A DNA stretch of 64,000 nt from Zoogloea sp. (GTDB lineage: Bacteria > Pseudomonadota > Gammaproteobacteria > Burkholderiales > Rhodocyclaceae). Below the pieces are notes generated by a model. The model was not told the origin of the DNA, did no database searches, and was given only the letters and a program-made list of their open reading frames with translations. The position numbers and the translations under genes were made by a program. Shown in pieces: positions 9,301 to 45,832 of this stretch. The stretch is from NCBI RefSeq assembly GCF_023150065.1, contig NZ_JAKLLN010000002.1, positions 248,001-312,000 on the forward strand. The letters run 5' to 3'. Each line of letters opens with the position of its first letter. Positions within the stretch are counted from its first letter, which is position 1.

Positions 9301-9359
9301 GCCTGCCTGGAGGCTCGGTTTTCTGCCGACGTCATCGTTCATATTTCAGGAGCGCCTCA

Positions 9360-10695: not shown

Positions 10696-10702
10696 AGTCC
10701 GC

Positions 10703-13641: not shown

Positions 13642-13654
13642 TTGAAAGGTCGGT

Positions 13655-16381: not shown

Positions 16382-16409
16382 ACACCTGCGAGCGTGAATC
16401 CGGAGAACC

Positions 16410-28905: not shown

Positions 28906-31900
28906 CTAGAGGCCCCCGGGGCAGCGGAACTCGGCGAGCTCGCGCAGCCGGAAGGGGTTCTGGACACTCCCCGCGGTGACTTCGAAACTTGCGCTGCGGC
29001 CGTCCACGTCGAAGCTCACGCGGAATTTCTCCGGCGCCCCCAGGCTTTCGATGCGGGCCTTGTCGAAGAGCCGGAACAGCGCCCACGGGCCTTCGGTGGA
29101 GAAGCCGGAGTTGCCTCCGGCAGAGGGCGGATTGACCTGCACCCGGGCGCTGAGGCCGCCCTTGGCGCCGGGCCACTGCACCGACTGGAGCACCTGCGGG
29201 CCGTGGGCGTAGCGGATCAGCTGGCCATCCACGTCGAGGGTGATCTGGGTGAGCGCCGGGTCCATCTCGAGGGGCTTGAAGTCGAGGCGCAGGGTGCCGC
29301 CGCTGCGGAAGAACACGTCCCGGATGACGGCTGCCCGCTGGAACTGCACCAGGCTGCCCGGGTCGCCCAGGGACTGTTCCTGGACCTTCTTGAAGGTCCA
29401 TTGGCGGGTGGAGGTGTCCACGTACTGGGCCAGGTTCTTCTGGAAGAAGTCGTCGATGACGCCGCCGGGGGCGAACAGGCGGGCGAAGTCTTCCCGGGTG
29501 ACATCGCGGCTGCTGCCCCGGGTGAAGGGGTAGCGGCCCTCGATAGCGCGCTGGCAGAACTGGCCGACCTGGCCGCCCACATTGGCCGACAGGTTTTCGC
29601 GGGTGGCCGAGAGGGCCTGGCTGACACCGGCGCTGGAGATCTGCTGCAGCATCGAGCGCAGGGGCTCGGGCATGCGCGCGCCTTCGGCCTTCACCTTGGC
29701 GGCGGTGCCGCCCGGCGGTGGCGCCACCTTGTCGCGCAGGGCGGTCTCGGTGGCGGTGAGATTGACGTAGACCTCGTTGAGCAGGGCCATCACGCCGTCG
29801 ATGGGGGCGGTCTTGCCGTCGCCGCTGTCCACCAGGTTGCGGATCGGCGCGAAGTGCTCGTCCACCATGCTCTCCTGGGACGGGCCCTGGGGGCCGCGCA
29901 CGCTGGCGACGGGGTCGAAGCCGAGGATCTTGCCCAGCTCCTGGCGGGCGCCGGAGATCTTCTCCTTGGCGGCGTCCACCACGGTCTTGTCCTCGGGCTT
30001 GCGGCTCAGGGAGGTCTCCCGGGCCACCGCCTTCAGGAAGCGCGGCAGGGGCGAGTCCGGGGCCGACAGGGTGCGGGCCTGCTGGATGCTCTGTTGCAGG
30101 CTGGCGGAGCGGATCAGGGTCACGTCCCGCAGATACTCGTCCCACACCGCGATGTAGTCCGCCAGGTAGAGCCGGCGGACGTCCTCGATGAGGCGGGCGG
30201 CGTCGGGCGGGGTGCCCGCAGCGCTGCCCAGTACCCAGGTCTCCTCGCCGGCCAGCTGCTTGGTGACGCGTCCGACTTCCCGGTCGAAGCCCTTGTAGTA
30301 GCCGTCGTGGGTGTACAGGCCGGCGATGCCCTTGGTCAGGGGCTGGCCGCTCTTGCGCACGAAGACCAGCGCGGCGGACGGCCCGGCGGCCCGGTCGAGG
30401 GCGAAGTCGGGGATGTCCCGGCCAACGCCCTGGCGCTTGAGGCGGCTATACACGCGCGCCGGCAGCGAGAAACGCAGCAGCTGGTTGCGGGCCTGGGCGA
30501 CCAGGGCACTGTCGGTGGCCACCGGCGAATTGACGGCGCCATCGGCGAACAGATTGTCCAGGTGCTGGTTGAGGGCGCTGCGCTGGTCGGTGGTGGCGCC
30601 GGCGGGGAGGGTCCGCTCCCAGTCACTGGTGATCCAGGCCTTCAGCGCCTCGGCGTTGAAGCGGGCCGGGTCCTGGAGCATGAGGTAGGCCTTGAGGGCT
30701 TCGTAGGTGAACTCCAGGTTGCCCCGGGACAGGCTGTCGCGCAGCTGGGTGTCAATGCGTTGGGCGATGCGGGGCATCAGCGCGTCCCGCAGGAGGTTGT
30801 GATAGGCCTGCCCGGCCGCCGCATCAAGCTTTTCATCCTGGGCCAGGCCGAAGCCCAGGGATATGGGCGTGTTGCCATTGGGGCGGGCGGCGGTGACGGA
30901 CACGCCCTGCACCGCATCGATCACCGGCAGCAGTCCGAGCAGATCGTCGAGGGGTAGGTCCGAGGCCTGGACCGTGACGGGCTTCAGCTCGGCCACCCGG
31001 GCATTCACCTCGTCGATGTAGCCGCGGTTGCCGATGTAGGAGAGGGTCCAGGCCAGCAGCAGCCCCACCGACACCAGGCCGATGGCGGCAAAGGCGGCCA
31101 GGCGGATCAGCCCGCGGCGGCGCTCCCAGGCGAGGTTGGCCTTGCCGATGCCCTGCTCGGCAAAGATCACCTCGCGCAGCAGGCGCGTCATGAAGAAGCT
31201 CTTGCCCGAGCCGAACTGGGGCGGAAGGACACGCCGCTCCAGGCTGAAGGCGCCGCCCAGGGTGGCCAGCACGCGGTCGATGGGGCTGCCTTCCTGGGTG
31301 CCGCTGGTGAAATAGACGCCGCGCACGAGGGCGTCGTGCTTGAAGCCCGACGAGGCGAAGATCTGCTCGATGAAGCTGCCGAGCAGGCGGGTGGCGCCGG
31401 CAAACTGGTGGGGAAAGGCGGCAATGGCCTCGCGCCGGGACAGGTCGCGCTCGGTCTGCAGGCGCTCCAGCAGCTGGCCATCGATGCGTGCCTGGAGGCC
31501 GGCAAAGCGCGCACCCAGGCCGGCCAGGGGCTTGGCGTCATCGTCCAGGGGCAGGGTGGTGCCCCATACCTGGTCGCGGGCGTCCTTGCCCAGGTTGCCG
31601 AAGAACTCCTGGAAGCCGGCGATCAGGTCGGACTTGGTGACCAGCACGTAGATCGGCAGGCGCACGCCGAGCTCGGTGTAGAGCTCGTGGATGCGCTCGC
31701 GCAGGGCGGCGGCGTGGGCGCTGGCGGCGGCTTCGTTCTGGGTGAGCAGGTCGCTCAGGGAGATGGTCAGCAGGACACCGTTGAGGGGCTGGCGGGGGCG
31801 GGATTTTTTGAGCAGGGCCAGGAATTCACGCCACGCCCCCTTGTCGGTCTCCCGGTCGGAGTCCTGGGTGGTGTAGCGGCCGGCGGTGTCCAGCAGCACG

Positions 31901-32463
31901 GCTTCGTCGGAAAACCACCAGTCGCAGTTGCGGGTGCCGCCCACGCCCTTGACCTGATGCCCGCCGCTGCCTTCGGCCAGGGGAAAGCGCAGGCCGGAGT
32001 TGATCAGCGCGGTGGTCTTGCCGGAGCCGGGGGCGCCGATGAAGACGTACCAGGGCAGCTCGTAGAGATAGCGGCTCGAGCCCATGGCGGCGAGCTTGTC
32101 GAGAGCGCCGCCCTTGGTTTCGCCGCCCATCCGGCGCTGCTTGAGCACGGCGGTGCCGTCGGCAAAGCGCTGGCGCAGGATCTGCAGCTCCGGGGATTCT
32201 TCCTTCTGGGCGGGCTTGCCGGCGATGCCGTCGATCAGTTCGGCGTTCTTCTTGCGCGCTTTCCAGCCCCGGTAGGCCAGGTGGCCGACGATGGCCAGCA
32301 CGCACAGCACGATGAGCACCAGCCGGGCGGTGTCCGACTCGAGGGGGGCATGGCCGGCGATGGCGATGAGGGGCCCCACGTACCAGATCACCAGGCTTAG
32401 GGCGATGAGGCCGACGATGGTGATGGCGACGGGGTGAAGGAGGGCCTTGAAAAAGCTTTTCAT
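28906..32463 (-). CDS. tssM: T6SS inner-membrane complex protein TssM (IcmF family)
   Basis: TssM spans the inner membrane and links TssL to the outer-membrane lipoprotein TssJ. The 1185-aa protein has an N-terminal transmembrane hairpin (about 11-37 and 46-64), a cytoplasmic NTPase-like domain with Walker A GAPGSGKT at 143-150 and a Walker-B-like EAVLLDTAGRY at 187-197, a third membrane span near 453-477, and a long periplasmic part. The start MKSFFKALLHPVAI at 32463 gives the correct N-terminal hairpin; the frame stays open further upstream but only as an out-of-frame overlap with tssL. It begins 16 bp after the tssL stop. Confidence 0.97.
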   Translation of the reverse strand: MKSFFKALLHPVAITIVGLIALSLVIWYVGPLIAIAGHAPLESDTARLVLIVLCVLAIVGHLAYRGWKARKKNAELIDGIAGKPAQKEESPELQILRQRFADGTAVLKQRRMGGETKGGALDKLAAMGSSRYLYELPWYVFIGAPGSGKTTALINSGLRFPLAEGSGGHQVKGVGGTRNCDWWFSDEAVLLDTAGRYTTQDSDRETDKGAWREFLALLKKSRPRQPLNGVLLTISLSDLLTQNEAAASAHAAALRERIHELYTELGVRLPIYVLVTKSDLIAGFQEFFGNLGKDARDQVWGTTLPLDDDAKPLAGLGARFAGLQARIDGQLLERLQTERDLSRREAIAAFPHQFAGATRLLGSFIEQIFASSGFKHDALVRGVYFTSGTQEGSPIDRVLATLGGAFSLERRVLPPQFGSGKSFFMTRLLREVIFAEQGIGKANLAWERRRGLIRLAAFAAIGLVSVGLLLAWTLSYIGNRGYIDEVNARVAELKPVTVQASDLPLDDLLGLLPVIDAVQGVSVTAARPNGNTPISLGFGLAQDEKLDAAAGQAYHNLLRDALMPRIAQRIDTQLRDSLSRGNLEFTYEALKAYLMLQDPARFNAEALKAWITSDWERTLPAGATTDQRSALNQHLDNLFADGAVNSPVATDSALVAQARNQLLRFSLPARVYSRLKRQGVGRDIPDFALDRAAGPSAALVFVRKSGQPLTKGIAGLYTHDGYYKGFDREVGRVTKQLAGEETWVLGSAAGTPPDAARLIEDVRRLYLADYIAVWDEYLRDVTLIRSASLQQSIQQARTLSAPDSPLPRFLKAVARETSLSRKPEDKTVVDAAKEKISGARQELGKILGFDPVASVRGPQGPSQESMVDEHFAPIRNLVDSGDGKTAPIDGVMALLNEVYVNLTATETALRDKVAPPPGGTAAKVKAEGARMPEPLRSMLQQISSAGVSQALSATRENLSANVGGQVGQFCQRAIEGRYPFTRGSSRDVTREDFARLFAPGGVIDDFFQKNLAQYVDTSTRQWTFKKVQEQSLGDPGSLVQFQRAAVIRDVFFRSGGTLRLDFKPLEMDPALTQITLDVDGQLIRYAHGPQVLQSVQWPGAKGGLSARVQVNPPSAGGNSGFSTEGPWALFRLFDKARIESLGAPEKFRVSFDVDGRSASFEVTAGSVQNPFRLRELAEFRCPGGL

Positions 32464-32479
32464 GGGGGTGTCCAGCGGA

Positions 32480-33793
32480 TCAGTTGCCCGGAGCCGGGGG
32501 GAACACGACGATCTCGACGCGCCGGTTGCGGGCGCGCCCTTCGGGCGAGTCGTTGGAGGCGACCGGCACGCTCTCGGCCATGCCCTCGGCCTTGATGCCG
32601 CCGTTGCCCGGCAGGCGCGCGGCCAGCAGGGCCGCCACTGCGTCGGCGCGGGCCTTGGAGAGGTGCCAGTTGGACGGGAAGCGCGCCGAGCGGATCGGCT
32701 GGTTGTCGGTGTGGCCGCGGACCACCACGCTGCCGCCCAGCTTGCCGATGGCGGTGCCGATGTGGTCGAGCAGTTCGATGAAGGTGGCCGAGGGGGTGGC
32801 GCTGCCCGGGTCGAAGAGCCCGTCGCCTTGGGTGAGCACGATGCTCCGGTCGGCCAGGTCCTGCACCACCAGGCGGCCCGAGCGCACATCGGCGGCCAGC
32901 TGGCCGGCCAGCCGGTCGGGGGCCGGGGCGGTGGGCGGCGGCGCCTTGGCGACGGCGCTGCGGGGCGTCACGGTGAGGGCCAGGATGTCGGAGAAGGTCG
33001 GGTCGGACTGGCGGTTGAGGGCGAAGGAGGCGCCGACATACACCAGGCCGGTGAGCGCTGCGGCCACGGCCGCCACCGCCCACACGGGCAGGCTGTCGCG
33101 CAGGGGTTTGCGCTGGCTGGCGCTGGTGCGCCAGTCGGGGGAGAGCTCCCGGTCGGGTTCGCTGCGCACCCGGCTGAGCATGGCGTAAAGGCGCTCGCGC
33201 ACCTGTTCGAGCTGGGCCGCGCCGTTCTGCAGGACGCGGTAACGGCCCTCGAAGCCGAGGCTGATGATGAGATAGAAGAGCTCCAGCAGGTGGCGGTGGG
33301 TGTCGGGCTGCTCGGCCACCTTGCCCATCAGCTGGAAGAATTTTTCACCGCCCCAGGCTTCGTTGTGGAACTGGATCAGCAGGCTGTTCTGGGCCCAGAT
33401 CCGTTCGCCCCAGGGGGTGTTGGCGGCGGCTTCGTCGAGAAAGGTGCACAGGGCGTAGCGGGCTGCCACCACGTGCTCGTTGGGGCTGCCGGAGGCGCGG
33501 GCGCGCCGCTCGAATTCCTGTACCGCCTGGGCCAGGGTGGTGCGCAGGCCGCTGGGGTCGGGCGGGGCCACCTGGCGCAGCTGGGGGGCGAGGTTGAGCA
33601 GGGGGCTGGCGGCTGCGACGAGGGGGTTGAGCCCGGTTTCCCAGTCGAGGGCGCTCAGGTCGGTGTGTTCGAAGCGCCCTCCGCCGGGCGGCGGCGGGGG
33701 CGAGCCGGCCTGGGGGGCCGGGCGGGCGCCCGGGGACGGAATGATCAGGGTGCGATCGGCGGGCATCTGCCCGAACGGATCATCGTGTGCCAT
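32480..33793 (-). CDS. tssL: T6SS protein TssL with C-terminal OmpA domain
   Basis: TssL (DotU family) is the inner-membrane partner of TssM. The 437-aa protein has a Pro-rich cytoplasmic start, a DotU domain (YALCTFLDEAAANTPWG, HNEAWGGEKFFQLM, LELFYLIISLGFEGRYR), one membrane span (about 233-255) and a periplasmic OmpA-like domain (VVRGHTDNQPIRS) that should grip peptidoglycan. So this is the evolved TssL that needs no separate peptidoglycan anchor such as TagL. It is 65 bp downstream of tssK and 16 bp upstream of tssM. Confidence 0.97.
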   Translation of the reverse strand: MAHDDPFGQMPADRTLIIPSPGARPAPQAGSPPPPPGGGRFEHTDLSALDWETGLNPLVAAASPLLNLAPQLRQVAPPDPSGLRTTLAQAVQEFERRARASGSPNEHVVAARYALCTFLDEAAANTPWGERIWAQNSLLIQFHNEAWGGEKFFQLMGKVAEQPDTHRHLLELFYLIISLGFEGRYRVLQNGAAQLEQVRERLYAMLSRVRSEPDRELSPDWRTSASQRKPLRDSLPVWAVAAVAAALTGLVYVGASFALNRQSDPTFSDILALTVTPRSAVAKAPPPTAPAPDRLAGQLAADVRSGRLVVQDLADRSIVLTQGDGLFDPGSATPSATFIELLDHIGTAIGKLGGSVVVRGHTDNQPIRSARFPSNWHLSKARADAVAALLAARLPGNGGIKAEGMAESVPVASNDSPEGRARNRRVEIVVFPPAPGN

Positions 33794-33858
33794 GGGGCAA
33801 ACCTCTCAATGGCACCCCCGCGCCGGCGGGAGTGGAACGATTGCGCCGGGGCCCGCGC

Positions 33859-35199
33859 CTAGGCGCGGATGGCCCACAGGGAAAGATCAAGGCCGGGAAA
33901 GTCGCCGGTGACATAGATGCCGAGGGCGCCGGAGGCATCCAGCTGCTGCCAGAGGTCGCCGGTGTTGTCGAGTTCGAAGTAGGAGAAACCCGCGTGGTAG
34001 GGGATCTGCCGCGGGGCCACCGGCAGCGGACGCAGGGCGATGCCGGGCAGCTGCAGGTTGACCAGGTCGCGCATGCGCTCCAGCGGGCCGAGCTTGGCCT
34101 GGGCCGGGAAGCGGGTGCGCAGCATCTCGCCGGGGAGCTGGGCATTGACGGCCAGGATGAAGCCGGCGTTGCGCAGCAGGCTGCGGTCGATGATGTGGCC
34201 CACGTAGCGCCCCTGCTTGTGGTCCTGCAGGTCGATGGCGATGGCGTTCTGGTCGAGCAGGGTGGTGAGCCCCAGGCGGATGGCGCGGATCAGGGGCAGG
34301 AAGCACAGGTCGAGTTCGTCGTGGCAATACACCGGGAAATCCCCGGGACGGCGCTCGGTGGTGGCGAGGGTGGACAGCTCGCCGGCCACTTCGAGCAGGC
34401 GCTCGAACAGGTGGTGGGGGTGCAGCGGGCGGTCGGAGCGGAACTGGTCGAACAGCGGCTGGTAGCGGTTGACGGTCATCAGGAACAGGAAATCGGCCAC
34501 CTCGGCCACGCCACCGGCGCCCGGATGGGCCAGTCGCGAGGCCAGGGCGTCGCCGCGCTGGTGGAGCAGGGCGCTGACTTCCTTGATGTAGCCCTCGAGC
34601 ACCGGTGAGGTGGCGCTGTCGAGTACCGGGGGGATGTAGCCCCGGTCGAGGAGCAGGCTGTTGTCGGCGCGCTTTTCGGTGACACGGACCACGCCGATCC
34701 GGGTGTAGGCATCGGTGAGCGGGTCGCTCAGGGCCAGGCGCAGCTTGGGCTGCCCCACCTGGATGCCGACGGTGCCGCCTTTTTCGGTGTGGGCGTCGCT
34801 GAGTTCGAAATCCACCGGCTCATAGCGGGCCAGGCGGGCGGTGGCGTCGGCGGAATCGGGGCTGACCTCGAGGCCCTGGGCCCGTCGCAGGGGCAGCGCC
34901 AGGCAGACGATCTGGTCCTTGGCGTCCTTGGGGAAATCCAGTGCCGGCGGCGGGAGGTCGATGCCCGGAATGTCGAAGGGGGTGCCGTCGGGCAGCACGC
35001 CCCGGGCTTCGACGATGGCGAGCTTGCCGGCCAGCAGGGCGGCCTCGTCGATGACCAGGTGGGAGAAGCCCCAATGGTTGCCGAACAGGGGCGCCACGCG
35101 GGATTCGACCCACCAGGCGGCGTGGCGGTCCTGCTGCTGAAAATGCTGGGGTTGGAGAAACAGGCCTTCCGACCAGACAACCCGACTGAACCAAGACAT
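33859..35199 (-). CDS. tssK: T6SS baseplate protein TssK
   Basis: TssK trimers connect the baseplate to the TssJLM membrane complex. The 446-aa protein starts MSWFSRVVWSEGLFLQPQHF, the classic TssK N-terminus, so the start is set at 35199 even though the frame is open further upstream. Other conserved parts are LPGIALRPLPVAPRQIPYH and FSYFELDNTGDLW near the C-terminus. It begins 28 bp after the tssJ stop. Confidence 0.97.
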   Translation of the reverse strand: MSWFSRVVWSEGLFLQPQHFQQQDRHAAWWVESRVAPLFGNHWGFSHLVIDEAALLAGKLAIVEARGVLPDGTPFDIPGIDLPPPALDFPKDAKDQIVCLALPLRRAQGLEVSPDSADATARLARYEPVDFELSDAHTEKGGTVGIQVGQPKLRLALSDPLTDAYTRIGVVRVTEKRADNSLLLDRGYIPPVLDSATSPVLEGYIKEVSALLHQRGDALASRLAHPGAGGVAEVADFLFLMTVNRYQPLFDQFRSDRPLHPHHLFERLLEVAGELSTLATTERRPGDFPVYCHDELDLCFLPLIRAIRLGLTTLLDQNAIAIDLQDHKQGRYVGHIIDRSLLRNAGFILAVNAQLPGEMLRTRFPAQAKLGPLERMRDLVNLQLPGIALRPLPVAPRQIPYHAGFSYFELDNTGDLWQQLDASGALGIYVTGDFPGLDLSLWAIRA

Positions 35200-35227
35200 T
35201 GTGATGATCTCCAGGGCCGGAGGCCGG

Positions 35228-35707
35228 TCAGCGTTGGGGAGCGATGCTGACCGTATCCCGCCCGACTTTCGCCTGCAGGGTATTGAGCGTGTTTCGCTGG
35301 ATGGGGGCCACGGCCCGCCAGACTGTTCGATTGGGGTCACGGTAGGCCACGAAGACACCGATGGACTTGACCTCGGCGCCTGGTCGCAGGAGCGTCTTGA
35401 CGCTCTCACCCGGCCGCAGGGTGATCTCCTCCCGCTGCACGCTGGTGGCGCCGAGGGTCTTCTCGTCGGCATCGAAGAGCGAGAAGAAATCGGCCGCCTC
35501 GAAGGAGGCCGGGTGGGACAGCAGGTAGTAGCGCACCACCACCGGGGTGGAGCGGCCGCGGCTGTCCTGATTGACGGTCGTATCTGCCTGGAGTGTCAGC
35601 TGAACCAGCGTGGGCGGAAGCTCCGGAACTTGCGGCTTGCTGCCGCCACAGGCGGCCAGCGCAATGCACAGGCCTGCCCAGCAACTGGTCTTGAATGGCT
35701 TCCACAT
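35228..35707 (-). CDS. tssJ: T6SS outer-membrane lipoprotein TssJ
   Basis: TssJ anchors TssM to the outer membrane. The 159-aa precursor has a signal peptide and lipobox ALAAC with the lipidated Cys at residue 20. The mature domain has the TssJ sandwich strands (LVQLTLQADTTVNQD, PVVVRYYLLSHPASFEAADF, IGVFVAYRDPNRTVWRA). The ATG at 35707 yields a normal 20-residue signal peptide; upstream in-frame starts would put an unlikely extension before it. It heads the leftward block and is divergent from the heme lipoprotein gene, with a 195-bp shared promoter region. Confidence 0.93.
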   Translation of the reverse strand: MWKPFKTSCWAGLCIALAACGGSKPQVPELPPTLVQLTLQADTTVNQDSRGRSTPVVVRYYLLSHPASFEAADFFSLFDADEKTLGATSVQREEITLRPGESVKTLLRPGAEVKSIGVFVAYRDPNRTVWRAVAPIQRNTLNTLQAKVGRDTVSIAPQR

Positions 35708-35902
35708 GAATCGGGGTCCGCGAGTCGACGACCGCAGCAGTTTATCCTGTAACCACAGCGCTTGAGCGCCGGATAAAAGGCCACGAAGCATTATCATTTT
35801 TGCTAAGGTGAGCGAATAAGGACGTCGGCGCGCGGTGCCCTCCCAGGGTTGGGCGCGACCAGGCATCAAGCCACAACGTCATCACCGCAGAGGGAGCCTC
35901 AC

Positions 35903-38137
35903 ATGCGCGTTTCGCTTGTCTCGAAAGTGTCCGTCGCGTCTGTTGTCTGCTCGTTTGTCATGGTGCTTGTTGCCGGCTGCGGCGGTTCGGGCAGCGCCGA
36001 TGGTGTCAAGAAAGGCACGGGCGCAACGCTCACCTCCCTGCAGGTGGAGGGGCGCGACGGGGATGGCGACAGCCTGAACTACCAGTGGCGGGTGACGGCC
36101 GGCAGCATCGACAACCGCAATGCCAGCGCCACCACCTGGACCCTTCCCGACGGCCCCGGCATGCACTTCGCCTATGTGCTGGTCGGCGATGGCAAAGGGG
36201 GCTACGTCGAGCAGCAATACGCCGTCTCCAGCGATGCCTTCCGCATCCCCGCCCCGCAGGCTGCGCCGGCAAGCTATACCGCGCCGGCCGTGGCGGCCAG
36301 TGATGAGGTGAAGGGCGGAACCGTGCGGCTCCGCTTCATCGCGGATTTCGACACCACCTTCCACGACGGGGCCGCTTCGGGGGCCCGTAACGTCTATCTG
36401 CCCGACGTTCGGGTGAGCGTGACCAGGGCCGGCACGGGTGAGGCGGTGTATTCCGGTACCAGCAACCTCGGCGGCGAGCTGACGCTTCCGGCCCTGAACG
36501 GGGGCGAGCAATTCAACATCGTCTGCAGCGGCCCCCAGGGAAACATCCTCGAGGGCTGCAGCACGCTGACGGGCGCGGCGGTCTCGCAAGGGCTGCAACT
36601 GGCCGTCAAGGCGCCGTCGAACGTGCACAACCTGCGCCTGTACGGGCATGTCGGGCTGGCGGATGGTGGCCTCTGCGGCGTGGACAACGCGTTTTTCGGG
36701 GCCCAGTCCACCGCCACCGTCCAGGCACTGCAGGCGGATGGCAGCAGCATCACCGCGCCGGTCCGGGTGAACCGCTTTGGTGACTACGTGCTGGACGCTG
36801 CGGTGCTGGTGAATGCCCGCCTCAAGCTCCGCATCCGCTGCGAGGCTTACTCGGCGACCCTCGACCTGCCCACCCCGACGGGGGGCTATCTGGGCAATGC
36901 CATCGAGTTCTCCCACGTCATTCCCAACAGCCGGCCGGCCATGGTCAGGATGCTGGCCAACGGCCCGGACGGCAATGTGCGGGGCCAGATGGTGGTGCCG
37001 GTGGCGGGGGCCTTTTCGGTGGCACAGCCCCGTTCCGACCACTTCCTGACCTACAAGGGCGCCGACAGCCGGGTAGGGGCCTGCAACTATTACCGGGCCT
37101 TCGGGGCGGTGAAGGACTGTGACGCCCAGGGCAACATGGTGGGCGCCATCACCCTGGAGGACTGGAAGCGCGAGAACAGGATAGGCAGCTACCGGGCCGG
37201 CAACGAGGAGGTCTCGGCCACCTATGTGAATCAGCGCGACCTCAACCTGGTCCGGCGCATGGTGGCCACGCAGAGCGCCCCGGACCGGATCGCCTTTGTC
37301 GTCTGCAACCACCCCGGCCCGGACGGTGACACCCAGCGCGAGACCAATGAGGTGATCGACACGGCCCTTGCCGACGAGAAGCAGGTTGCCTGCGTCGCCA
37401 TGGAGTATTCGCCGGCCGCGGGGCGGAGCGATGGCAAGCCCTTCACCAAGTTCCTGACCTTCGGCCCTGACGGCAAGCTGGTGTTGTCGGTCAATCTGGA
37501 CGGGCGCGGCGAGAAATACATGCCTGGCGCCTGCGTGGCTTGCCACGGTGGGGCAAATTACCTGGGGCGCTTCCCGGAAGCGGGGCATCCCAGCCCGGAC
37601 CTGAAAGCGAACTTCCTGCCCTTCGATACGGGCAACTACCTGTTCTCGACCCGCCGGGGTTTTTCCGAGGCCGAGCAGGCCGCCGCCATCCGCAAGCTCA
37701 ACGATCTGGTCGTCGCAACCCAGCCCGCCACCGCCACCCGCAAGCTGGTCCAGGGCTGGTACGCCAAGTCGGCCCTGAACCTGGACAAGGCTTACGTGCC
37801 GCCGGCCTGGGTCAGCTACGACACGGTCAGGCCCGGTGCCGCGCGCTTCTACCGGGAAGTGGTGGGCACCTCATGCCGGACTTGCCACGCCTCCATGCAG
37901 GACGACTTCGACTGGGATTCAGGGGCGGCCCAACCCCTGCTGCTGAGCCGCGTGGCCCTGCCCCATGTCTGCGGCGGCAAGGCCGACTTGTATGCAAACG
38001 CCTCCATGCCGAACGCCCTGATGTCCCTGGACAAGCTCCAGGCCCACATCCAGGCCGACCCCTCCCTGGCGACGCTGGTGAAGGATTTCCTGGGCTGCAT
38101 CACCCCCGCCCCGGATCCGGTCTATCCCCGTCGCTGA
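35903..38137 (+). CDS. Lipoprotein with Ig-like N-terminal region and two c-type heme motifs
   Basis: A 744-aa exported protein. The signal peptide ends in a VAGC lipobox (Cys26), so it is lipid-anchored. The first 100 mature residues look like an Ig/cadherin-like strand domain (DGDGDSLNYQWRVTAGS). A region with VRVSVTRAGTGEAVYSGTS and repeats resembles a Gram-negative carboxypeptidase-regulatory fold. The C-terminal third has two heme-attachment motifs, CVACH at about 544-548 and CRTCH at about 658-662, with CHGGANYLGRF after the first. This suggests a periplasmic or surface diheme protein. A GGGAG site precedes the ATG. It starts an operon-like run ending with mrtJ and a porin. The specific function is unknown. 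Confidence 0.85.
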   Translation: MRVSLVSKVSVASVVCSFVMVLVAGCGGSGSADGVKKGTGATLTSLQVEGRDGDGDSLNYQWRVTAGSIDNRNASATTWTLPDGPGMHFAYVLVGDGKGGYVEQQYAVSSDAFRIPAPQAAPASYTAPAVAASDEVKGGTVRLRFIADFDTTFHDGAASGARNVYLPDVRVSVTRAGTGEAVYSGTSNLGGELTLPALNGGEQFNIVCSGPQGNILEGCSTLTGAAVSQGLQLAVKAPSNVHNLRLYGHVGLADGGLCGVDNAFFGAQSTATVQALQADGSSITAPVRVNRFGDYVLDAAVLVNARLKLRIRCEAYSATLDLPTPTGGYLGNAIEFSHVIPNSRPAMVRMLANGPDGNVRGQMVVPVAGAFSVAQPRSDHFLTYKGADSRVGACNYYRAFGAVKDCDAQGNMVGAITLEDWKRENRIGSYRAGNEEVSATYVNQRDLNLVRRMVATQSAPDRIAFVVCNHPGPDGDTQRETNEVIDTALADEKQVACVAMEYSPAAGRSDGKPFTKFLTFGPDGKLVLSVNLDGRGEKYMPGACVACHGGANYLGRFPEAGHPSPDLKANFLPFDTGNYLFSTRRGFSEAEQAAAIRKLNDLVVATQPATATRKLVQGWYAKSALNLDKAYVPPAWVSYDTVRPGAARFYREVVGTSCRTCHASMQDDFDWDSGAAQPLLLSRVALPHVCGGKADLYANASMPNALMSLDKLQAHIQADPSLATLVKDFLGCITPAPDPVYPRR

Positions 38138-38172: not shown

Positions 38173-39492
38173 ATGAAATCATCCACCCCCACCCTCAAGA
38201 TCCTGACCGCGCTGCTGCTGAGCGTGGGGCTCGCCGCGTGCAGCAGCGTCAAGGGGCCCGCCGCTGCGGGCGGTGCCCGTAACGCTCCGGAGGCGGCCCA
38301 GGGCGCAGCCGGCGGTGGCGATCCGGACTACACCGCAGAGCTTGCCCCGCAATCGACCCCCCGGTCTCCGCGCAAGCCCCTGGTCGCACCGTCACCGATC
38401 AAGTTCGAGGACGCCATCACCCGGGCTGGCGACAAGCTCTTCGAGGATGCCCTGGCCGAGGTGGGCAGCGGCAAGCGGGCCGTGGTCATCGACCCCCTGA
38501 TCGATGCCAATACCGGTGCCCAGACCGTCAGCACGGTCAAGATGGGGCAGCAGCTCCAGGCCCTGCTCAAGCAGCGCCGCTACAACAATTTCACCGTCAA
38601 GCCGCTGACCCGGCAGACCCTGGCGGAGCAGCCCCTGCTGCTGATCGGCACCCTCACGCCGGTCAATGTCGAGCGGGCCGTCGACACGCCTCCCGATGCG
38701 TTCCGGGTCTGGCTCACGGTCATCGACCTTAAGACCCGGCGGGTGGTCGCCAAGCAGATCGACCGGGCCACCGTGGGCTCGGTGAATCCCGAGCCGCTGC
38801 CTTACTTCCGTGACAGCCCCAGCTGGCACAAGGACAAGACGGTGATGGGCTACATCAACTCCTGCCAGGTCAATACCCAGGTTGGCGACCCGGCAGACCC
38901 GGACTACCTGTCCCGCCTGCCCGCCGCCGCCGTCATCAACGAAGCCATGCTGGCCTACAACGACGGCAAGATCGGCGATGCCAACGCCCTCTACAAGGAG
39001 GCATCCCAACTGGCCGACCGGGGTGACCTGCGCGTCCTCAACGGCCTTTACCTGACCAGCTGGCAGCTGGGCCAGCGGGACGCGGCGCAGGACGCCTTCG
39101 GCCGGCTGGTGGCCTCGGGTCTGGAGGCCAAGCGCCTGCCCATGAAGCTGCTTTTCAAGCCCGGCACGGTCAACTTCAACGACCTGGGCGACCTTCCCAC
39201 CCAGTACCAGCTGTGGCTCGCCACCATGGCCAGGGAAGCCGGCAAGACGCCCGCCTGCATGAAGGTGGTCGGGCATACCAGCCGTACCGGCAGTGCCAGT
39301 GCCAACGAGCGTCTGTCCCTGCGCCGTGCCGAGGCGGTGAGCAAGCTGCTGGAAGGGCGTGACCGTTCGCTGCGGTCCCGGCTGTCGGTAGGCGGCGTCG
39401 GCTCCCGGGAGGCCCTGATCGGGCTGGGTACGGACGATCAGCGGGATGCACTGGACAGGCGGGTGGAGTTTCGGGTCGTCGACTGCATCTAG
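38173..39492 (+). CDS. OmpA-like lipoprotein
   Basis: A 439-aa lipoprotein with signal peptide and lipobox GLAAC (Cys23). Residues 80-230 form a domain with RAVVIDPLIDANTGAQT and LLLIGTLTPVN that resembles FlgO/LPP20-type outer-membrane domains. A TPR-like helical stretch follows (YNDGKIGDANALYKEASQLA). The C-terminus is an OmpA-type peptidoglycan-binding fold (VVGHTSRTGSASANERLSLRRA and DQRDALDRRVEFRVVDC). It begins 36 bp after the heme lipoprotein and precedes the JDVT-CTERM gene by 63 bp. It could anchor that complex to peptidoglycan. No T6SS core role is left open for it, since TssL already carries an OmpA domain. Confidence 0.82.
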   Translation: MKSSTPTLKILTALLLSVGLAACSSVKGPAAAGGARNAPEAAQGAAGGGDPDYTAELAPQSTPRSPRKPLVAPSPIKFEDAITRAGDKLFEDALAEVGSGKRAVVIDPLIDANTGAQTVSTVKMGQQLQALLKQRRYNNFTVKPLTRQTLAEQPLLLIGTLTPVNVERAVDTPPDAFRVWLTVIDLKTRRVVAKQIDRATVGSVNPEPLPYFRDSPSWHKDKTVMGYINSCQVNTQVGDPADPDYLSRLPAAAVINEAMLAYNDGKIGDANALYKEASQLADRGDLRVLNGLYLTSWQLGQRDAAQDAFGRLVASGLEAKRLPMKLLFKPGTVNFNDLGDLPTQYQLWLATMAREAGKTPACMKVVGHTSRTGSASANERLSLRRAEAVSKLLEGRDRSLRSRLSVGGVGSREALIGLGTDDQRDALDRRVEFRVVDCI

Positions 39493-39555: not shown

Positions 39556-41736
39556 ATGTTCAGGAATCTTCGGAATGCAGGACGGGTCGCGCTGGCCTTG
39601 TCCGGACTTGCCATGGCGGGTGCGGCCCTGTCCGCAGGCACCCCAAGCTCGGCACTCTGGACGACCGTCTGCCAGACCTGCCACCAGGGGAAGGACCACC
39701 CCGGCTTTGTGTCCACGCCGTCGAACCCTCCCTTGACGGTCACCTACCCGCCGATCCTCAACTCGGCCGATCGACTTGACTATACCTGGCTGGATTCGCT
39801 GGCCGGCTTGCAGGCCCACATCGCGAGTGTCGCCACGTCGACCTCCACCATGAAGTCGTATTACGACACCTACATCGTTGGTGGCACGACCGATGTGGAT
39901 GAGTTGCGTGTCTTCCTGCTGGCCGCCCTGGATGGCGCCTTCGACAAGATGGGTGTCAGTTTCGGCAGCAGTGACATCAATGTTGCAAAGACCGACAGCG
40001 TCACCATTACGAACCTGCGGGCAAGCAATCTGGTGGTCAATACGGGGTCGGTCAGCGTGACTGACGCGACGAATTACCTGATCAATCCGGCGTCGAGCAC
40101 CTGCTTTAGTCAGCCGAGCCTGAATCCGGGCGACTCATGCACCCTTTCGGTTTCCTTCAAACCGGCGAGCGCCGGCCTGAAATCCGCCACCCTCGAGGTT
40201 CCGCTCACCCCAGCCGGTGGTGACCCCACCCCGAAGGTGGCAAGCATTGCGTTGTCGGGGACGGGGAGCGCGCCGCCGCCGATCCCTGTCCCCATCCTCA
40301 GCTCCGGCAACATTGCCGCGCTGATGGATCGTCCGGTGGGGGAGAGCAGCACCGCAGATCTGACACTGGCCAATGTCGGTAACGCTCCGGTCACCCAACT
40401 GGCCGTCGCCATCCAGGGGGCTGCCGCGGCCGATTACACCTTCACCGAAGACTGCTCCACGAATCCTCCGGCGCCCGGTGGTGTCCAGACCTGCGCGGTC
40501 CACATCAGTTTCAAGCCCACAGCCCTGGGGGTTCGGGAGGGCTCCGTGGTGGTCAGCTACTCGGGCGGTACGCCGACGCAGAATTTCTCCCTGCCGGTGG
40601 TGATGAACTTCAGGGGCATCGTCCCGCCGAAGCCCACGGCCACTTTCACCGCGTCCACCGACTTCGGCAGCCAGGGGGTTGGTAACGTGTATCCGCCCCG
40701 GCGGCTCACCTACACCAACTCCGGAGTGGTCACGATCGCCAATGTTGCCGTGTCGATCTCCGGCGAGGGCTTCTCGGTGCTCAGCCCCGCCTGCCCGGCC
40801 ACGCTGGCGCCGGGGGCCAAGTGCAATATCGACGTGCAGTTCATGCCTGCGCTGGCGGACAGCAGCTACGCGGGTGTGGTGAGCGTGGCGAGTAACGCCG
40901 ACGGCGCGCCCCACAAGGCCACCCTGAGCGGTCGCGGGGTGAATGAGCCGACCCCCGTGCTGGCCTGGTCTGCCGCCGGTGGCGCGGTCGATTTCGGCGC
41001 TGTTGCGGTCGGCGCGAGCCGCGATCTGGAGGTGACGCTCACCAACCCGGGGCCGGCGGCGGTGATACTCCGGGTCGCCAACATCCTTGGTGCACAGGCT
41101 CAGTCCTTCCTCGTGGTGCCGGTCTCGTGCCAGTTCGGCGACTATCTCACCGCAGGGCAGTCCTGCAAGTTCAGGCTCAGCTTCAAGCCCGGTTCGTCCG
41201 GCACCAAGGTCGCCGATGTCCAGGCCGGCACGACGGGGAGCGCACCGGGCCTGCTGACGGTCACGGGCATCGGGCTCAGCGGGCCGGAGCCCCGGGCCGC
41301 GCTCTCTGCGACGGCCTTGAGCTATACGGCGGTCCGGGTCGGCTCCAGTTCGGCACCGCAGCTCATCACCCTGCGCAGCAATGGCTCGGCGTCCCTGCAG
41401 ATCAACGATATTGCGGTCAGCGGTGCCTTCGTGATCAGCGCGCAGACCTGTGCGGCACCGCCTTTCAGCCTGGAACCGGGCTTCGAGTGCACCCTCTCGG
41501 TGAGCTTCAAGCCCACCACGGAAGGCGTGCTTGCGGGAAGCGTGAAGATCGCCTCCAACGCGGCAGACCCTGCGGAATGGCAGGTCAGCCTGAGCGGCAC
41601 GGCCGACCCGGCGCCCAAGACCTCGGGGGGCGGCGGCTGCTCCCTGGCGCAGGGCGATTCACCCGTCGATCCGACCCTGTGGCTGCTGGCCGCTGCCGCC
41701 CTGGGCGTGCTGTGGTGGCGTGGGCGCAGGGCATGA
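39556..41736 (+). CDS. JDVT-CTERM surface protein with one c-type heme motif and choice-of-anchor D repeats
   Basis: A 726-aa exported protein. A signal peptide (about 1-27) precedes a heme motif CQTCH at 39-43. The bulk is about six Ig-like choice-of-anchor-D repeats, each ending in phrases such as CTLSVSFKPASAG, CAVHISFKPTALG, CNIDVQFMPALAD, CKFRLSFKPGSSG. The C-terminus is a three-part sorting signal: GGGGCSLAQGD with the invariant Cys at 695, a hydrophobic helix (about 708-721) and an Arg cluster RGRRA. This matches JDVT-CTERM, whose predicted processing protease MrtJ is the next gene. It is expected to be cleaved near Cys695 and left on the cell surface, probably lipidated; that last step is inference. 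Confidence 0.9.
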   Translation: MFRNLRNAGRVALALSGLAMAGAALSAGTPSSALWTTVCQTCHQGKDHPGFVSTPSNPPLTVTYPPILNSADRLDYTWLDSLAGLQAHIASVATSTSTMKSYYDTYIVGGTTDVDELRVFLLAALDGAFDKMGVSFGSSDINVAKTDSVTITNLRASNLVVNTGSVSVTDATNYLINPASSTCFSQPSLNPGDSCTLSVSFKPASAGLKSATLEVPLTPAGGDPTPKVASIALSGTGSAPPPIPVPILSSGNIAALMDRPVGESSTADLTLANVGNAPVTQLAVAIQGAAAADYTFTEDCSTNPPAPGGVQTCAVHISFKPTALGVREGSVVVSYSGGTPTQNFSLPVVMNFRGIVPPKPTATFTASTDFGSQGVGNVYPPRRLTYTNSGVVTIANVAVSISGEGFSVLSPACPATLAPGAKCNIDVQFMPALADSSYAGVVSVASNADGAPHKATLSGRGVNEPTPVLAWSAAGGAVDFGAVAVGASRDLEVTLTNPGPAAVILRVANILGAQAQSFLVVPVSCQFGDYLTAGQSCKFRLSFKPGSSGTKVADVQAGTTGSAPGLLTVTGIGLSGPEPRAALSATALSYTAVRVGSSSAPQLITLRSNGSASLQINDIAVSGAFVISAQTCAAPPFSLEPGFECTLSVSFKPTTEGVLAGSVKIASNAADPAEWQVSLSGTADPAPKTSGGGGCSLAQGDSPVDPTLWLLAAAALGVLWWRGRRA

Positions 41737-42140
41737 GCCGCTTGCCAGACCTTGCCGTCCGGCCGGCAGCGGGCCTGCTGCTGCAGTCTGCCGCGGTGCT
41801 CGCCCTGGCCGTCGGTGCCGCGGGCCTGAGCGGCACGGCGTGGCGGGGGCTTGTCCTGCTGCTGTTTGCCCCCGTGGTCGAGGAGATCATCTTCCGCCGG
41901 GGGCTGCAGGAGGCGCTGTTGTCGCGCCGCTGGCCCCGCTGGCAGGCCAACCTGGCCGTGGCGCTGCTGTTTGCCCTGGCCCACTGGGCCCTGAGGGGCC
42001 AGGTGGAAGCCGTTGCCGTGGTGCTTCCGGCCCTGCTGCTTGGCGCCCTCTACGGGCGGTGGCGGCGGCTGGCACCCTGCGTGCTGGCCCATGCCCTGAT
42101 GAATGGCATCTGGCTGCTGGCTGTACCGACCCTCCCTTGA
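41733..42140 (+). CDS. mrtJ: JDVT-CTERM glutamic-type intramembrane sorting protease (CPBP/Rce1 family)
   Basis: A 135-aa integral membrane protein of the CPBP (Rce1/CAAX protease-like) family. The catalytic motifs are present: EEIIFR (E50-E51 to R55), a membrane His in ALAHW (H84), and the C-terminal HALMN (H120, N124). The length is short, only the protease core, as described for MrtJ enzymes dedicated to JDVT-CTERM tails. Its ATG overlaps the stop of the JDVT-CTERM gene (ATGA), so substrate and protease are made together. The predicted role is to cut the tail of the upstream protein near its Cys in the inner membrane. Confidence 0.88.
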   Translation: MSRLPDLAVRPAAGLLLQSAAVLALAVGAAGLSGTAWRGLVLLLFAPVVEEIIFRRGLQEALLSRRWPRWQANLAVALLFALAHWALRGQVEAVAVVLPALLLGALYGRWRRLAPCVLAHALMNGIWLLAVPTLP

Positions 42141-42197: not shown

Positions 42198-43208
42198 ATG
42201 AAAAAGACATCCACGATCCTGACGGCAGTCCTGGGCGGCCTGCTCTTCATCGGGGCCGACGCGGCCCGGGCCCAGGTGGATTACAGCGTCTATGGCGTTG
42301 CCGATCTCTCTTACGGCGCCTTCGGGCAGAGCGGGCTGGCCAGGGATGTGCGCTTCAACAGCAACTCCCTGTCGCCGAGCTTTGTCGGCTTCACCGGCAG
42401 CTACGGCTTTGAAGAGGGGTGGAGCGTGGCGGCGGTGGCCGAGACCTTCATCCGTTTCCATGATTTCAAGACCGGCCGGCGTGACTCCGACCCCCTGCTG
42501 TCGAGGAACGCCTTCATCGCCCTGCGCAACAATGACTACGGCGCCCTGCGCTTCGGCCGCCTGCAGACCCTGATCTTCGACACCACCAACCGCTTCAACG
42601 CGCTGGGCAATTCGCCCCTGTCACCGGCGATCCGCCAGCTTTTCTTCAGCGGCAACATCGAAGGGGTGGACGGGGATTTCTACTGGGACAACGCCGTCGG
42701 CTACACCAGCCCCAACTTCGACGGACTGAGCTTCAACCTGATGCACGCAGTCCAGAAGCACGACGAACGGGGCAGCTACCAGGGGGGCAGCGTGGTGTGG
42801 TCCGTGGGCCTGCTGTCCCTTGAGGCGGCGGCCCAGAACGTGCATGTGAATGACGGCATCAAGGACCCGACCAGGGAGACCACCTGGCAGCTGGGGAGCA
42901 GCTACAACTTCGGCTTTGCCCGGGTGTTCGGCCTTTACTCCCAGGTGCGGGACCGTGCCCTGGATGCCAGAAGCAAGCTGGCCTCGGCGGGGGTCAGTCT
43001 GCCCCTGGGCCCGGGCTCACTGCTGTTCCAGGTCGGGTCGTCCACCACCGAAGGGGCTGCGATCGACCGCAAGCACACCACCATCAGCTCGGCCTACCTG
43101 TATGAATACGACAGCACGACGGATGTCTACGTGATCGGCATGGACGACCGGGTCCGCGGTCAGTCCAGCGGGCAGTCGGTGGCCCTGGGGGTGCGTTTCA
43201 AGTTCTGA
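42198..43208 (+). CDS. Gram-negative porin (Porin_4/Omp32-like)
   Basis: A 336-aa outer-membrane 16-stranded porin. A signal peptide (1-25, cut after ARAQ-like site) is followed by VDYSVYGVADLSYGAFG, then typical paired strands (ALRNNDYGALRFGRLQT, YTSPNFDGLSFNLMHAV) and the C-terminal Phe (SVALGVRFKF), which is the BAM recognition end. It lies 57 bp after mrtJ in the same direction and may be cotranscribed. Substrate is unknown. Confidence 0.9.
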   Translation: MKKTSTILTAVLGGLLFIGADAARAQVDYSVYGVADLSYGAFGQSGLARDVRFNSNSLSPSFVGFTGSYGFEEGWSVAAVAETFIRFHDFKTGRRDSDPLLSRNAFIALRNNDYGALRFGRLQTLIFDTTNRFNALGNSPLSPAIRQLFFSGNIEGVDGDFYWDNAVGYTSPNFDGLSFNLMHAVQKHDERGSYQGGSVVWSVGLLSLEAAAQNVHVNDGIKDPTRETTWQLGSSYNFGFARVFGLYSQVRDRALDARSKLASAGVSLPLGPGSLLFQVGSSTTEGAAIDRKHTTISSAYLYEYDSTTDVYVIGMDDRVRGQSSGQSVALGVRFKF

Positions 43209-43587
43209 CGGGGCGGGCGGCCCCAGGGGAGCAGAGATGACGGCATTGAACAGCTGTTACGTGGATCAGGGCGTTTGGGAGCATGCCGAACGTGGCATGC
43301 GTGTCGAGGGGGTGAACGATTTTTCGCCCGGTACGGTGCTCTTCCGGTTCGTCCAGCGGGCGGATGTGGCTGATGAGAGGATCGCTGACCAGGAAAGCGG
43401 TCAGCGTCATCTCCCGCACCAAGATGAAGCACAGTGAGGCCCTGGCGGACGGAGAAATCGAGGTCTTCCTGCGCAGCGTGGCGGCTTCCTGAAGCGGGCT
43501 GCAGGCCGTCATCCTGGCTTGATGGGTGCCCTCGCCCGGGGGCGAATTCACTCGACCTCGGACTTTGGTTGGCGTCGGCGTGTGGGG
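43209..43587. other. 379-bp gap with possible gene debris
   Basis: No convincing gene. Two short overlapping plus-strand frames (43237-43437 and 43373-43492) read as coherent but unmatched protein fragments; the second ends KMKHSEALADGEIEVFLRS. They could be two halves of a frameshifted old gene. No clear terminator separates the porin from the kinase, which converge here. Confidence 0.4.
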
Positions 43588-45132
43588 CTAGCGGCAGCGC
43601 GCCTTGTCGAAGCGGGCCAGGAGTTCGGGTGAGCTCTCGCCGAGGGAGATGCGCTGCAGGATGCTGGCGCACTCGGCGGAGCGGGGGGCGGCCGCTTTTT
43701 CGGGTTTGGCCGGTTTGGCGGTTGTCGTGGCTGCGGTTTCGACCGGTGCCTTGCGCACGGGGGCGGGCGTGGCCGGTGTCTCTCTGGGAGCGGGGCGGGC
43801 GACCGGGGCCGGGGATGGTGCTGCCCCTGGAGCGATGGTCGGGGGCGTCGATGGGGTGACTGACGGGGCCGGTTTTGCCGCTGCTTCGGTTGGCTCCGGG
43901 CGTGAAGGCGGGGGTGCGGCTTCTTGTGCTGCGGATGGGGTGGGGCGCGCTGCAGTGGGGGGCGTCGCTTCCACCGGACGTTCCCTGGTGCTCAGCCACC
44001 AGGCTGCCGCCATGGCACAGGCGAGGGCCAGACCGCCCGCCAGCGCGATGGGGGAGGCACGGCGTGGGGATGCCGCAGTGGCCTCGGCCGGCAGCGGGCT
44101 GACGCCGGGCGCGGGCGGGCTGCCCGGGGGCGGGGCGCTGGCCTTGTCCGGGTGCGATGATCGCCGTTCCAGGTCGTGGACGAGGTCGGCGATGGTCTGG
44201 GTACGGGCCTCGGGTCGGGCAGCCAGGGCCCGGTCGATGGCTTCCAGGAAGCCCGCGCTGAAGCCCGCCGGCGCACGCTCCGCCAGAGGGCGGTACTGGT
44301 CATTGAGCAGCCGACCCACCGAGGGCGGCGGGGTGCTGCCGGTGATGGCCCAGTGCATGGTGGCTGCCAGGGCGTAGATGTCGGTCCACGGCCCCTGCTT
44401 CATGTCGGGCAGTTCGGCGTATTGCTCGACCGGCGCGTAACCGGGCTTGAGGATGACGGTGAGGGCCTGGGTCATGTCGCCGATCACCCGGCGGGCCGCC
44501 CCGAAGTCGAGCAGCAGGGGGCGGCCAGTGCCTTCCAGCAGGATGATGTTGTCCGGGGCGATGTCCCGGTGGAAGCACTGTTCGCCGTGAATGAGCCGGA
44601 GGGCGTCACACAGGGGGGTGAGGATCCCGGTCAGCCAGGCCTCGCTGACCTTGGTCCGGCCTGCCTGGATGTGGTCCTTGAGGGTCTCCCCTTCGTAGAG
44701 GGGCATGACCATGTAGGCCGTGCCGTTTGCCTCCCAGAAGCGATACACCTTGACCAGCGAGGGATGGTCGAACTGGGCCAGGAGCTTTGCTTCATTCACG
44801 AAGCTCCGGAGGCCGGCCTCATAGGTGCCCCGATGGCGCTCGGAGCGGGGCGCCACGGTTGCCGGGCCCTTGCGCGAGGCGATCGAGGCGGGCATGTACT
44901 CCTTGAGCGCCACCTTGCGCTCCAGGGAGTGATCCCAGGCCAGATAGACGATACTGAAGCCGCCTTCACCGATTTTCGCCCGCAACTCGAATTCGCCGAT
45001 CAGGGTGCCCGCAGGCAGCGCCTGCCCGTCCCCTTCATCGTTGATCCGCGGGGCACCCCCCGGTGTGGCCGAGGTGTCATCGCCGGCAGCAGAGAGAATG
45101 GTGCGGTCGTCTTCTTCCGGTGCGTTGCTCAT
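43588..45132 (-). CDS. ppkA: Membrane Ser/Thr protein kinase, probable T6SS PpkA
   Basis: A 514-aa Hanks-type kinase, likely the partner of the pppA/tagH/tagF set. It has the glycine loop GEGGFSIVYLA (55-65), lysine K77 in VALKEYMP, the catalytic loop HRDIAPDN (188-195) in which the usual Lys is Ala, and LLLDFGAAR (206-214). One membrane helix (about 361-381) separates the kinase from a Pro/Ala-rich periplasmic part with a short conserved end (CASILQRISLGESSPELL). The Ala for Lys change is common in this bacterial subfamily, so activity is still likely. It is separated from the T6SS block by the JDVT-CTERM operon and transcribed toward it. Confidence 0.85.
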   Translation of the reverse strand: MSNAPEEDDRTILSAAGDDTSATPGGAPRINDEGDGQALPAGTLIGEFELRAKIGEGGFSIVYLAWDHSLERKVALKEYMPASIASRKGPATVAPRSERHRGTYEAGLRSFVNEAKLLAQFDHPSLVKVYRFWEANGTAYMVMPLYEGETLKDHIQAGRTKVSEAWLTGILTPLCDALRLIHGEQCFHRDIAPDNIILLEGTGRPLLLDFGAARRVIGDMTQALTVILKPGYAPVEQYAELPDMKQGPWTDIYALAATMHWAITGSTPPPSVGRLLNDQYRPLAERAPAGFSAGFLEAIDRALAARPEARTQTIADLVHDLERRSSHPDKASAPPPGSPPAPGVSPLPAEATAASPRRASPIALAGGLALACAMAAAWWLSTRERPVEATPPTAARPTPSAAQEAAPPPSRPEPTEAAAKPAPSVTPSTPPTIAPGAAPSPAPVARPAPRETPATPAPVRKAPVETAATTTAKPAKPEKAAAPRSAECASILQRISLGESSPELLARFDKARCR

Positions 45133-45445: not shown

Positions 45446-45832
45446 TCAAATCTTGATGATGGTGTCGCTGTAGAGCGCCACAAGGGGATCGTGGGTCATC
45501 AGCCGCATGGGCTCGACAAGCGCCTGAGCCACCAAGATGCGGTCAAATGGGTCCTGGTGGTGCGCAGCGATGTCTTCAACCGCCATTGCATGTTCTGCCT
45601 CGATTGCCAGGAAGCGATAGCCGGACTCGCCGAAGTAGCGCACGGCGTCCTGGCTGGATACGGGCATGTCGCCCCGGCCTAACGCGTGCTTGATTGCGAT
45701 TTCCCACACGCTGGCGGCGCTGATCCAGACGGTCGTCTTCGGAGACTGGATCAGTTCCCGTGCCTTCTGCGGCAGTTTCGGGCTGTCTGTGATCGCCCAC
45801 AGGGCAACATGGGTGTCCAGCAGCAGGTTCAA
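45446..45832 (-). CDS. Type II toxin, PIN-domain (VapC-like) ribonuclease
   Basis: A 128-aa PIN-domain protein, predicted RNA endonuclease toxin. The acidic active-site residues are visible: D6 in LLLDTHVALWA, E44 in SAASVWEIAIKHALG, and D94 in HHQDPFDRILVAQA, with a final MTHDPLVALYSD. The start overlaps the antitoxin stop by 4 bp (ATGA), the common antitoxin-first arrangement. The pair sits alone inside a tRNA-Leu-flanked insertion. Confidence 0.93.
   Translation of the reverse strand: MNLLLDTHVALWAITDSPKLPQKARELIQSPKTTVWISAASVWEIAIKHALGRGDMPVSSQDAVRYFGESGYRFLAIEAEHAMAVEDIAAHHQDPFDRILVAQALVEPMRLMTHDPLVALYSDTIIKI

Follow-up and report, generated by a model that had tools for sequence, protein, structure and literature searches.

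A JDVT-CTERM protein and an overlapping MrtJ protease gene in a type VI secretion locus of Zoogloea

Does one short piece of a Zoogloea genome encode both a surface protein and the protease that sorts it? We examined a 64,000-nucleotide window of Zoogloea sp. (RefSeq assembly GCF_023150065.1, contig NZ_JAKLLN010000002.1, positions 248,001 to 312,000 of the forward strand; coordinates below count from its first letter), in which an initial annotation had read two overlapping genes as a JDVT-CTERM protein and its dedicated glutamic protease, MrtJ. Both open reading frames (ORFs) lie where that annotation placed them (Table 1), and both identities are borne out by matches over curated NCBIfam cut-offs. 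Every defining JDVT-CTERM and MrtJ feature that can be decided at this locus is present. As far as sequence can tell, the pair is a genuine example of the known JDVT-CTERM/MrtJ sorting system, and cleavage of the tail is predicted. We consider it highly likely that the first gene encodes a surface protein and the second its own sorting protease, acting by the steps proposed below.

The JDVT-CTERM protein and its MrtJ protease

The 726-residue protein ends in a JDVT-CTERM tail. Residues 690–725 match the family model NF033191 at 49.4 bits against a curated cut-off of 27 (E=3.1e-13). The claimed composition is there, GGGGC followed by a short helix and RGRR, and both the cysteine, residue 695, and the arginine cluster are seen in the sequence and in the alignment. 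MYXO-CTERM (TIGR03901) is absent from the NCBIfam matches of this protein, with E up to 10 asked for and HMMER filters dropping most matches above 0.1. Upstream of the tail, choice-of-anchor D (NF012200) is matched in five stretches, and a hydrophobic stretch at residues 11–29, located by hydropathy, may be a signal peptide.

The 135-residue partner is recognized as MrtJ. It matches NF033192 at 89.3 bits against a curated equivalog cut-off of 75 (E=2e-25) and PF02517 at 70.3 bits. The CPBP protease motifs ascribed to it (EExxxR, His, HxxxN) hold up in an alignment of 17 CPBP sequences, where E50, E51, R55, H84, H120 and N124 are invariant and R55 completes EExxxR. A profile made from these 17 sequences found MmRce1 (4cad) at E=1.6e-5, the sole solved relative at E up to 0.1, and the AlphaFold model of MrtJ is all-helical with a predicted local distance difference test score (pLDDT) of 82.

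The pair is conserved among named relatives, all of them Zoogloea: sp. STD2_9, Z. dura and sp. SB3, making four copies with the window. All four have identical ATGA overlaps, through which the two genes may be translationally coupled, and identical DPAPKTSGGGGC. The tail shares 95, 74 and 74% identity with those of STD2_9, Z. dura and SB3, against 85, 45 and 45% for the whole protein. Conservation in the protein peaks at this tail, and the outer tip ranks among the least conserved parts; such a pattern would be expected of a tail that contacts the protease and a tip that faces the exterior. With both matches over curated cut-offs and the pair conserved, we rejected a chance signature. Positive selection was rejected too: when the window was compared pairwise with STD2_9, Z. 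dura and SB3, the ratio of nonsynonymous to synonymous divergence (dN/dS) did not exceed 1 for any gene or domain (the Z. dura TssJ row, with 12 codons aligned, was excluded).

Table 1. Coordinates of the pair, its block and the flanking genes in the window
Feature	Position	Strand	Basis or content
JDVT-CTERM protein, 726 aa	39556..41736	+	predicted signal peptide, N-terminal domain with CxxCH, five Ig-like stretches (choice-of-anchor D, ASH/HYDIN), JDVT-CTERM tail
JDVT-CTERM sorting signal, residues 690-725	41623..41730	+	invariant Cys695 (codon 41638-41640) followed by a short hydrophobic helix and an Arg cluster; NF033191
CQTCH, residues 39-43 of JDVT-CTERM protein	39670..39684	+	c-type haem attachment motif
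ATGA, mrtJ start overlapping JDVT-CTERM gene stop	41733..41736	+	4-nt overlap
MrtJ, glutamic intramembrane protease, 135 aa	41733..42140	+	NF033192; PF02517; all-helical model
MrtJ catalytic codons	E50/E51 41880-41885; R55 41895-41897; H84 41982-41984; H120 42090-42092; N124 42102-42104	+	
Putative lipoprotein, 744 aa, first gene of block	35903..38137	+	two CxxCH motifs (37532-37546, 37874-37888)
Lipoprotein-like protein, 439 aa, C-terminal OmpA domain	38173..39492	+	PF00691 31.9 bits vs cut-off 27.2; lipobox read by eye
Porin, 336 aa, last gene of block	42198..43208	+	PF13609 E=3.1e-29
Type VI genes TssM, TssL, TssK, TssJ, left of block	28906..35716	-	TIGR03348, TIGR03349/TIGR03350, TIGR03353, TIGR03352 over cut-off
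Ser/Thr protein kinase (PpkA-like by position), right of block	43588..45132	-	PF00069 E=4.8e-27

Across genomes of the order, the two families occur together. Of 399 genomes, 16 have an over-cut-off MrtJ and 16 an over-cut-off JDVT-CTERM protein, the latter count being a lower bound with at most 18 candidates scored per genome; both are found in 14 (Fisher p about 6e-22, uncorrected for relatedness), that is, in 14 of the 18 genomes with either. MrtJ stands alone in G014 and in G195, the latter with a 22.6-bit JDVT-CTERM match, and JDVT-CTERM stands alone in G389 and in G041, which has a 57.4-bit MrtJ match. Within the genus, the same 3 of 23 genomes (G000, G402, G409) hold both families over cut-off. 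G389 encodes two over-cut-off JDVT-CTERM proteins (L040, L058), which have Gly after Cys, unlike most other tails; it gave no MrtJ match at 1e-12.

A one-substrate, one-protease arrangement, as first proposed, describes this genome and not the family at large. A whole-genome profile search of the assembly (251 contigs, 97.85% complete) returned one over-cut-off MrtJ and one over-cut-off JDVT-CTERM protein. Two weaker JDVT-CTERM matches, at 19.7 and 13.6 bits, do not look like tails and were rejected as second substrates, since one (L006) is internal to an unrelated-looking non-tail frame and the other (L007) lies inside a multi-pass membrane protein. Elsewhere in the order, the number of over-cut-off JDVT-CTERM proteins per genome reaches five. 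A JDVT-CTERM match on the same strand within about 1 kb upstream accompanies 4 of 17 over-cut-off MrtJ genes, the window's included, and none accompanies the other 13, several assemblies being fragmented; the close pair is thus a minority arrangement in this sample.

A five-gene block beside type VI secretion genes

The pair sits within a block of five genes, encoding in order a CxxCH lipoprotein, an OmpA lipoprotein, the JDVT-CTERM protein, MrtJ and a porin. The window, STD2_9 and Z. dura share this order; the copy in the SB3 metagenome-assembled genome has the last four genes, its contig beginning just before the OmpA gene. We searched the 23 genus genomes separately for four of the five genes, those of the CxxCH lipoprotein, the JDVT-CTERM protein, MrtJ and the porin. 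The CxxCH lipoprotein (E≤1e-10) and the porin (E≤1e-30) occur in the same three genomes as MrtJ and JDVT-CTERM. The whole 744-residue lipoprotein gave no Pfam match at 0.01, and its C-terminal piece matched PF13442 at E=0.0028, below cut-off. A defence function was rejected: at 0.001, PADLOC gave no match for the JDVT-CTERM protein, MrtJ, the CxxCH lipoprotein or the porin, the match of the OmpA protein to ZorB was confined to its C-terminal OmpA/MotB region, and for the flanking kinase the matches were to kinase models. A shortened ORF remnant directly follows the porin (approximately 43238-43480), and a longer ORF occupies the same place in STD2_9 (L081).

Type VI secretion genes flank the block. 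To its left, TssJ, TssK, TssL, TssM, TagF, TagH and VgrG are over NCBIfam cut-offs, with a PP2C-type phosphatase below cut-off. The block adjoins TssJ in all four copies, in two orientations: the window and STD2_9 have it directed away from TssJ, whereas in Z. dura and SB3 it is inverted and the porin adjoins TssJ. TssK is matched in 9 of the 23 genus genomes, at 95–100% identity in the three that bear the block and 64–67% in the other six. The stretches fetched from those six showed no match to any of the five block proteins, although the L126 stretch has only 431 bases before TssJ. The kinase follows TagF in five of these block-less stretches, the five that reach that far. None of them offers a clean empty site, given the low TssK identity, the short L126 stretch and the kinase placed after TagF. 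Beside the Z. dura block (G409, L108) lie two nearby Ser/Thr kinase matches, at 10075-10974 and 13123-14082 (61 and 88% identity).

The block and its type VI neighbors may have had different histories, because synonymous divergence is mostly higher in the block. By simple Nei-Gojobori estimates, uncorrected for codon bias or saturation, divergence from STD2_9 is 0.31–0.47 for block genes, 0.19–0.23 for TssK, TssL and TssM, and 0.32 for TssJ. The corresponding values for block and type VI genes are 0.52–0.91 and 0.26–0.27 against Z. dura, and 0.55–1.26 and 0.26–0.38 against SB3. This pattern fits replacement of the block by recombination. We rejected an invertible element: among the 25 longest of 75 inverted-repeat pairs between 35400 and 44000, the pair closest to both block edges (35851-35873 and 43515-43537, 23 nt at 78%) was no better than many, although a short perfect repeat could still lie among the other 50. 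We therefore take the inversion to be evolutionary.

The predicted sorting route and its alternatives

The anatomy of the locus, read alongside published work on the related protease MrtX, suggests a sorting route. The ATGA overlap would let enzyme and substrate be made together from one message. The JDVT-CTERM protein would take the Sec route until its C-terminal helix arrested it in the inner membrane. Cys695 would then receive a modification, which on the published MrtX model is probably a lipid added by a general enzyme (Lgt, for example), and MrtJ would cut on the far side of Cys695, freeing the helix. By analogy with MrtX, a type II secretion system would move the anchored protein to the outer surface, where the Ig-like rod could present a haem-type CxxCH domain. 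There the protein may work with the CxxCH lipoprotein, the OmpA lipoprotein and the porin, genes with which it is co-inherited. The type II secretin GspD is over cut-off in the window genome.

Several observations weigh against this route. GspD is over cut-off in 21 of the 23 genus genomes, so the presence of type II secretion says little by itself. The C-terminal helix is short and weakly hydrophobic, and a 19-residue hydropathy scan at 1.5 did not flag it. The same scan would likewise miss 23 of 32 other JDVT-CTERM tails, and the window tail, with maxima of 1.27 (19-residue) and 1.77 (15-residue), lies within their ranges of 0.86–2.05 and 1.21–2.55. No lipidation enzyme was recognized in the block (ORF list, Pfam). 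The window MrtJ is short and falls outside the main MrtJ clade in a 35-sequence tree (the MrtJ of SB3 and of G414 left out), and Foldseek with its model gave no match at E≤0.001, the best ones (E 2.4 and worse) being unrelated. The haem assignment draws the remaining objections: the JDVT-CTERM N-terminus scores below the cytochrome c cut-offs (PF13442 14.4 bits against 27, PF00034 14.8 against 21.3; E 0.05–0.07), counting it, three Zoogloea N-termini fall short of the Pfam cytochrome cut-offs and the fourth, from Z. dura, has no Pfam cytochrome match, and the N-terminal domain is poorly modelled (pLDDT 56). Finally, the literature searched yielded no experiment on any MrtJ. The initial annotation had taken the system to be purely computational; this stands for JDVT-CTERM/MrtJ itself in that literature and fails for the related MrtX, which was tested experimentally in 2025 (PMC11980579).

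Three other readings compete with an anchored protein sorted by its own protease. MrtJ might instead cut the tail for release, leaving the protein free in the medium or matrix. Such an outcome has precedent, since TraA and MXAN_4924 of Myxococcus xanthus are found partly in the medium (PMC11980579), and it agrees with the lack of a recognized dedicated lipidation gene in the block. It would, however, leave the conserved tag cysteine with no clear role, and mrtX mutants are defective in surface localization (PMC11980579); we find release improbable. The idea that MrtJ is a general CPBP protease, its proximity to the JDVT-CTERM gene incidental, seems to us scarcely credible. Eight of the 23 genus genomes do carry other CPBP genes that match the MrtJ model, but those matches are below cut-off, the 7 of the 8 placed in the tree all fall in a separate clade, and the two families accompany each other in 14 of 18 order genomes with either and in all three such genomes of the genus.

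The block could also be functionally tied to the type VI secretion system, as an accessory to it and not just a neighbor, for instance as a contact sensor or an envelope anchor linked to the neighboring kinase. Adjacency to TssJ in every copy, whichever way the block points, speaks for such a role, as does the presence of all three block-bearing genus genomes among the nine with a TssK match. Yet six genomes with a related TssK have no block in the stretch fetched, and the association is statistically weak (p about 0.05) and could reflect one ancestral insertion. The synonymous divergence of the block, mostly exceeding that of flanking genes, also counts against this reading. On balance we judge an accessory role unlikely, and retain sorting by a dedicated MrtJ as our reading of the pair.

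The CxxCH motif and relation to known systems

The N-terminal CxxCH of the JDVT-CTERM protein is probably a c-type haem site, to judge from the motif. One such motif stands near the N-terminus in all four Zoogloea copies, within a domain that shows little conservation elsewhere (34% identity with Z. dura and SB3). Only 1 of the 32 other over-cut-off JDVT-CTERM proteins of the order has a CxxCH; all were fetched, with N-termini set at the first ATG, some perhaps wrongly.

That one exception lies near a window-type MrtJ. The L131 protein (8084-10855, minus strand, 924 residues) comes from a genome of another family that also carries a second MrtJ, in the main clade. Its N-terminus matches cytochrome c PF13442 at 27.0 bits against a cut-off of 27, and the protein further has five stretches of choice-of-anchor D, a JDVT-CTERM signal in internal position and, after that signal, a TlpA/ResA-like thioredoxin domain; it shares 30% identity with the window protein over 546 columns. 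Within about 15 kb are a lytic polysaccharide monooxygenase (LPMO), another choice-of-anchor D JDVT-CTERM protein, DsbD and ApbE. Also near this gene is an MrtJ that, alone among those from outside Zoogloea in the 35-sequence tree, clusters with the window's, on a branch supported at 98/95 that includes a long branch, L032_G264b, flagged as of unsure place. The fusion protein and its neighbors may again point to envelope redox chemistry near a window-type MrtJ.

From these observations we tentatively raise the possibility that the window-type MrtJ branch is specialized for sorting haem proteins to the cell surface. A choice-of-anchor D rod bearing a CxxCH domain, together with the OmpA lipoprotein, the porin and the second CxxCH lipoprotein, might form a surface redox or contact module, carried as an exchangeable cassette in the Zoogloea type VI locus. 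Two side observations concern L131. The LPMO_10 protein (15629-16606) has a borderline JDVT-CTERM tail, at 27.4 and 24.0 bits in two scorings against a cut-off of 27, and lies near the window-type MrtJ. The mid-protein JDVT-CTERM has a counterpart in MXAN_5598, for which PMC11980579 describes an internal MYXO-CTERM.

The closest studied system is MYXO-CTERM/MrtX of M. xanthus. MrtX cleaves its cysteine-containing tag and anchors TraA (PMC11980579, 2025). The likeness to the window pair lies in an invariant cysteine, a short helix, an arginine tail and a CPBP glutamic protease, and extends to the TraB/MXAN_5598 architecture, since an OmpA protein and a beta-barrel also occur in the window block. 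The systems differ in scale: M. xanthus, in its laboratory strain, possesses 35 MYXO-CTERM proteins, whereas the window genome has one JDVT-CTERM protein, encoded beside its protease. They also differ in the tag, the window tail matching JDVT-CTERM with MYXO-CTERM not among its NCBIfam matches.

GlyGly-CTERM/rhombosortase offers a further comparison. Both systems would combine a tripartite C-terminal tag, an intramembrane protease cut and type II export (PMC11980579). Rhombosortase is a serine rhomboid protease, whereas the window enzyme is glutamic. GlyGly-CTERM is not known to have an invariant cysteine. The CAAX protease MmRce1, reached by the profile match above, shares the EExxxR and HxxxN motifs with MrtJ, but its chain has 271 residues against 135 and it acts on prenylated CAAX substrates (PMC11980579).

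The two-gene neighborhood itself is already in print (Haft 2024, ref. 16 of PMC11980579, as reported in the latter), and the window resembles it: in both, a proteobacterium encodes MrtJ next to a lone JDVT-CTERM protein. Here, in contrast, the pair belongs to a five-gene block inside a type VI cluster, with a CxxCH substrate, features not described in the passages of PMC11980579 on JDVT-CTERM. The block, the motif and the type VI context make the pair somewhat more interesting than the pair alone. With one recognized substrate, one protease and overlapping genes, the locus is the simplest place to ask what becomes of the cysteine and where the cut falls, questions also open for myxosortases in general (PMC11980579). 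Through its CxxCH motif the substrate may come with a readout of its own, a haem stain. Should the type VI setting prove functional, it would connect JDVT-type protein sorting with contact-dependent competition.

Farther to the right in the window, two small overlapping ORFs on the minus strand (45446-46077) resemble a PIN-type toxin and its antitoxin.

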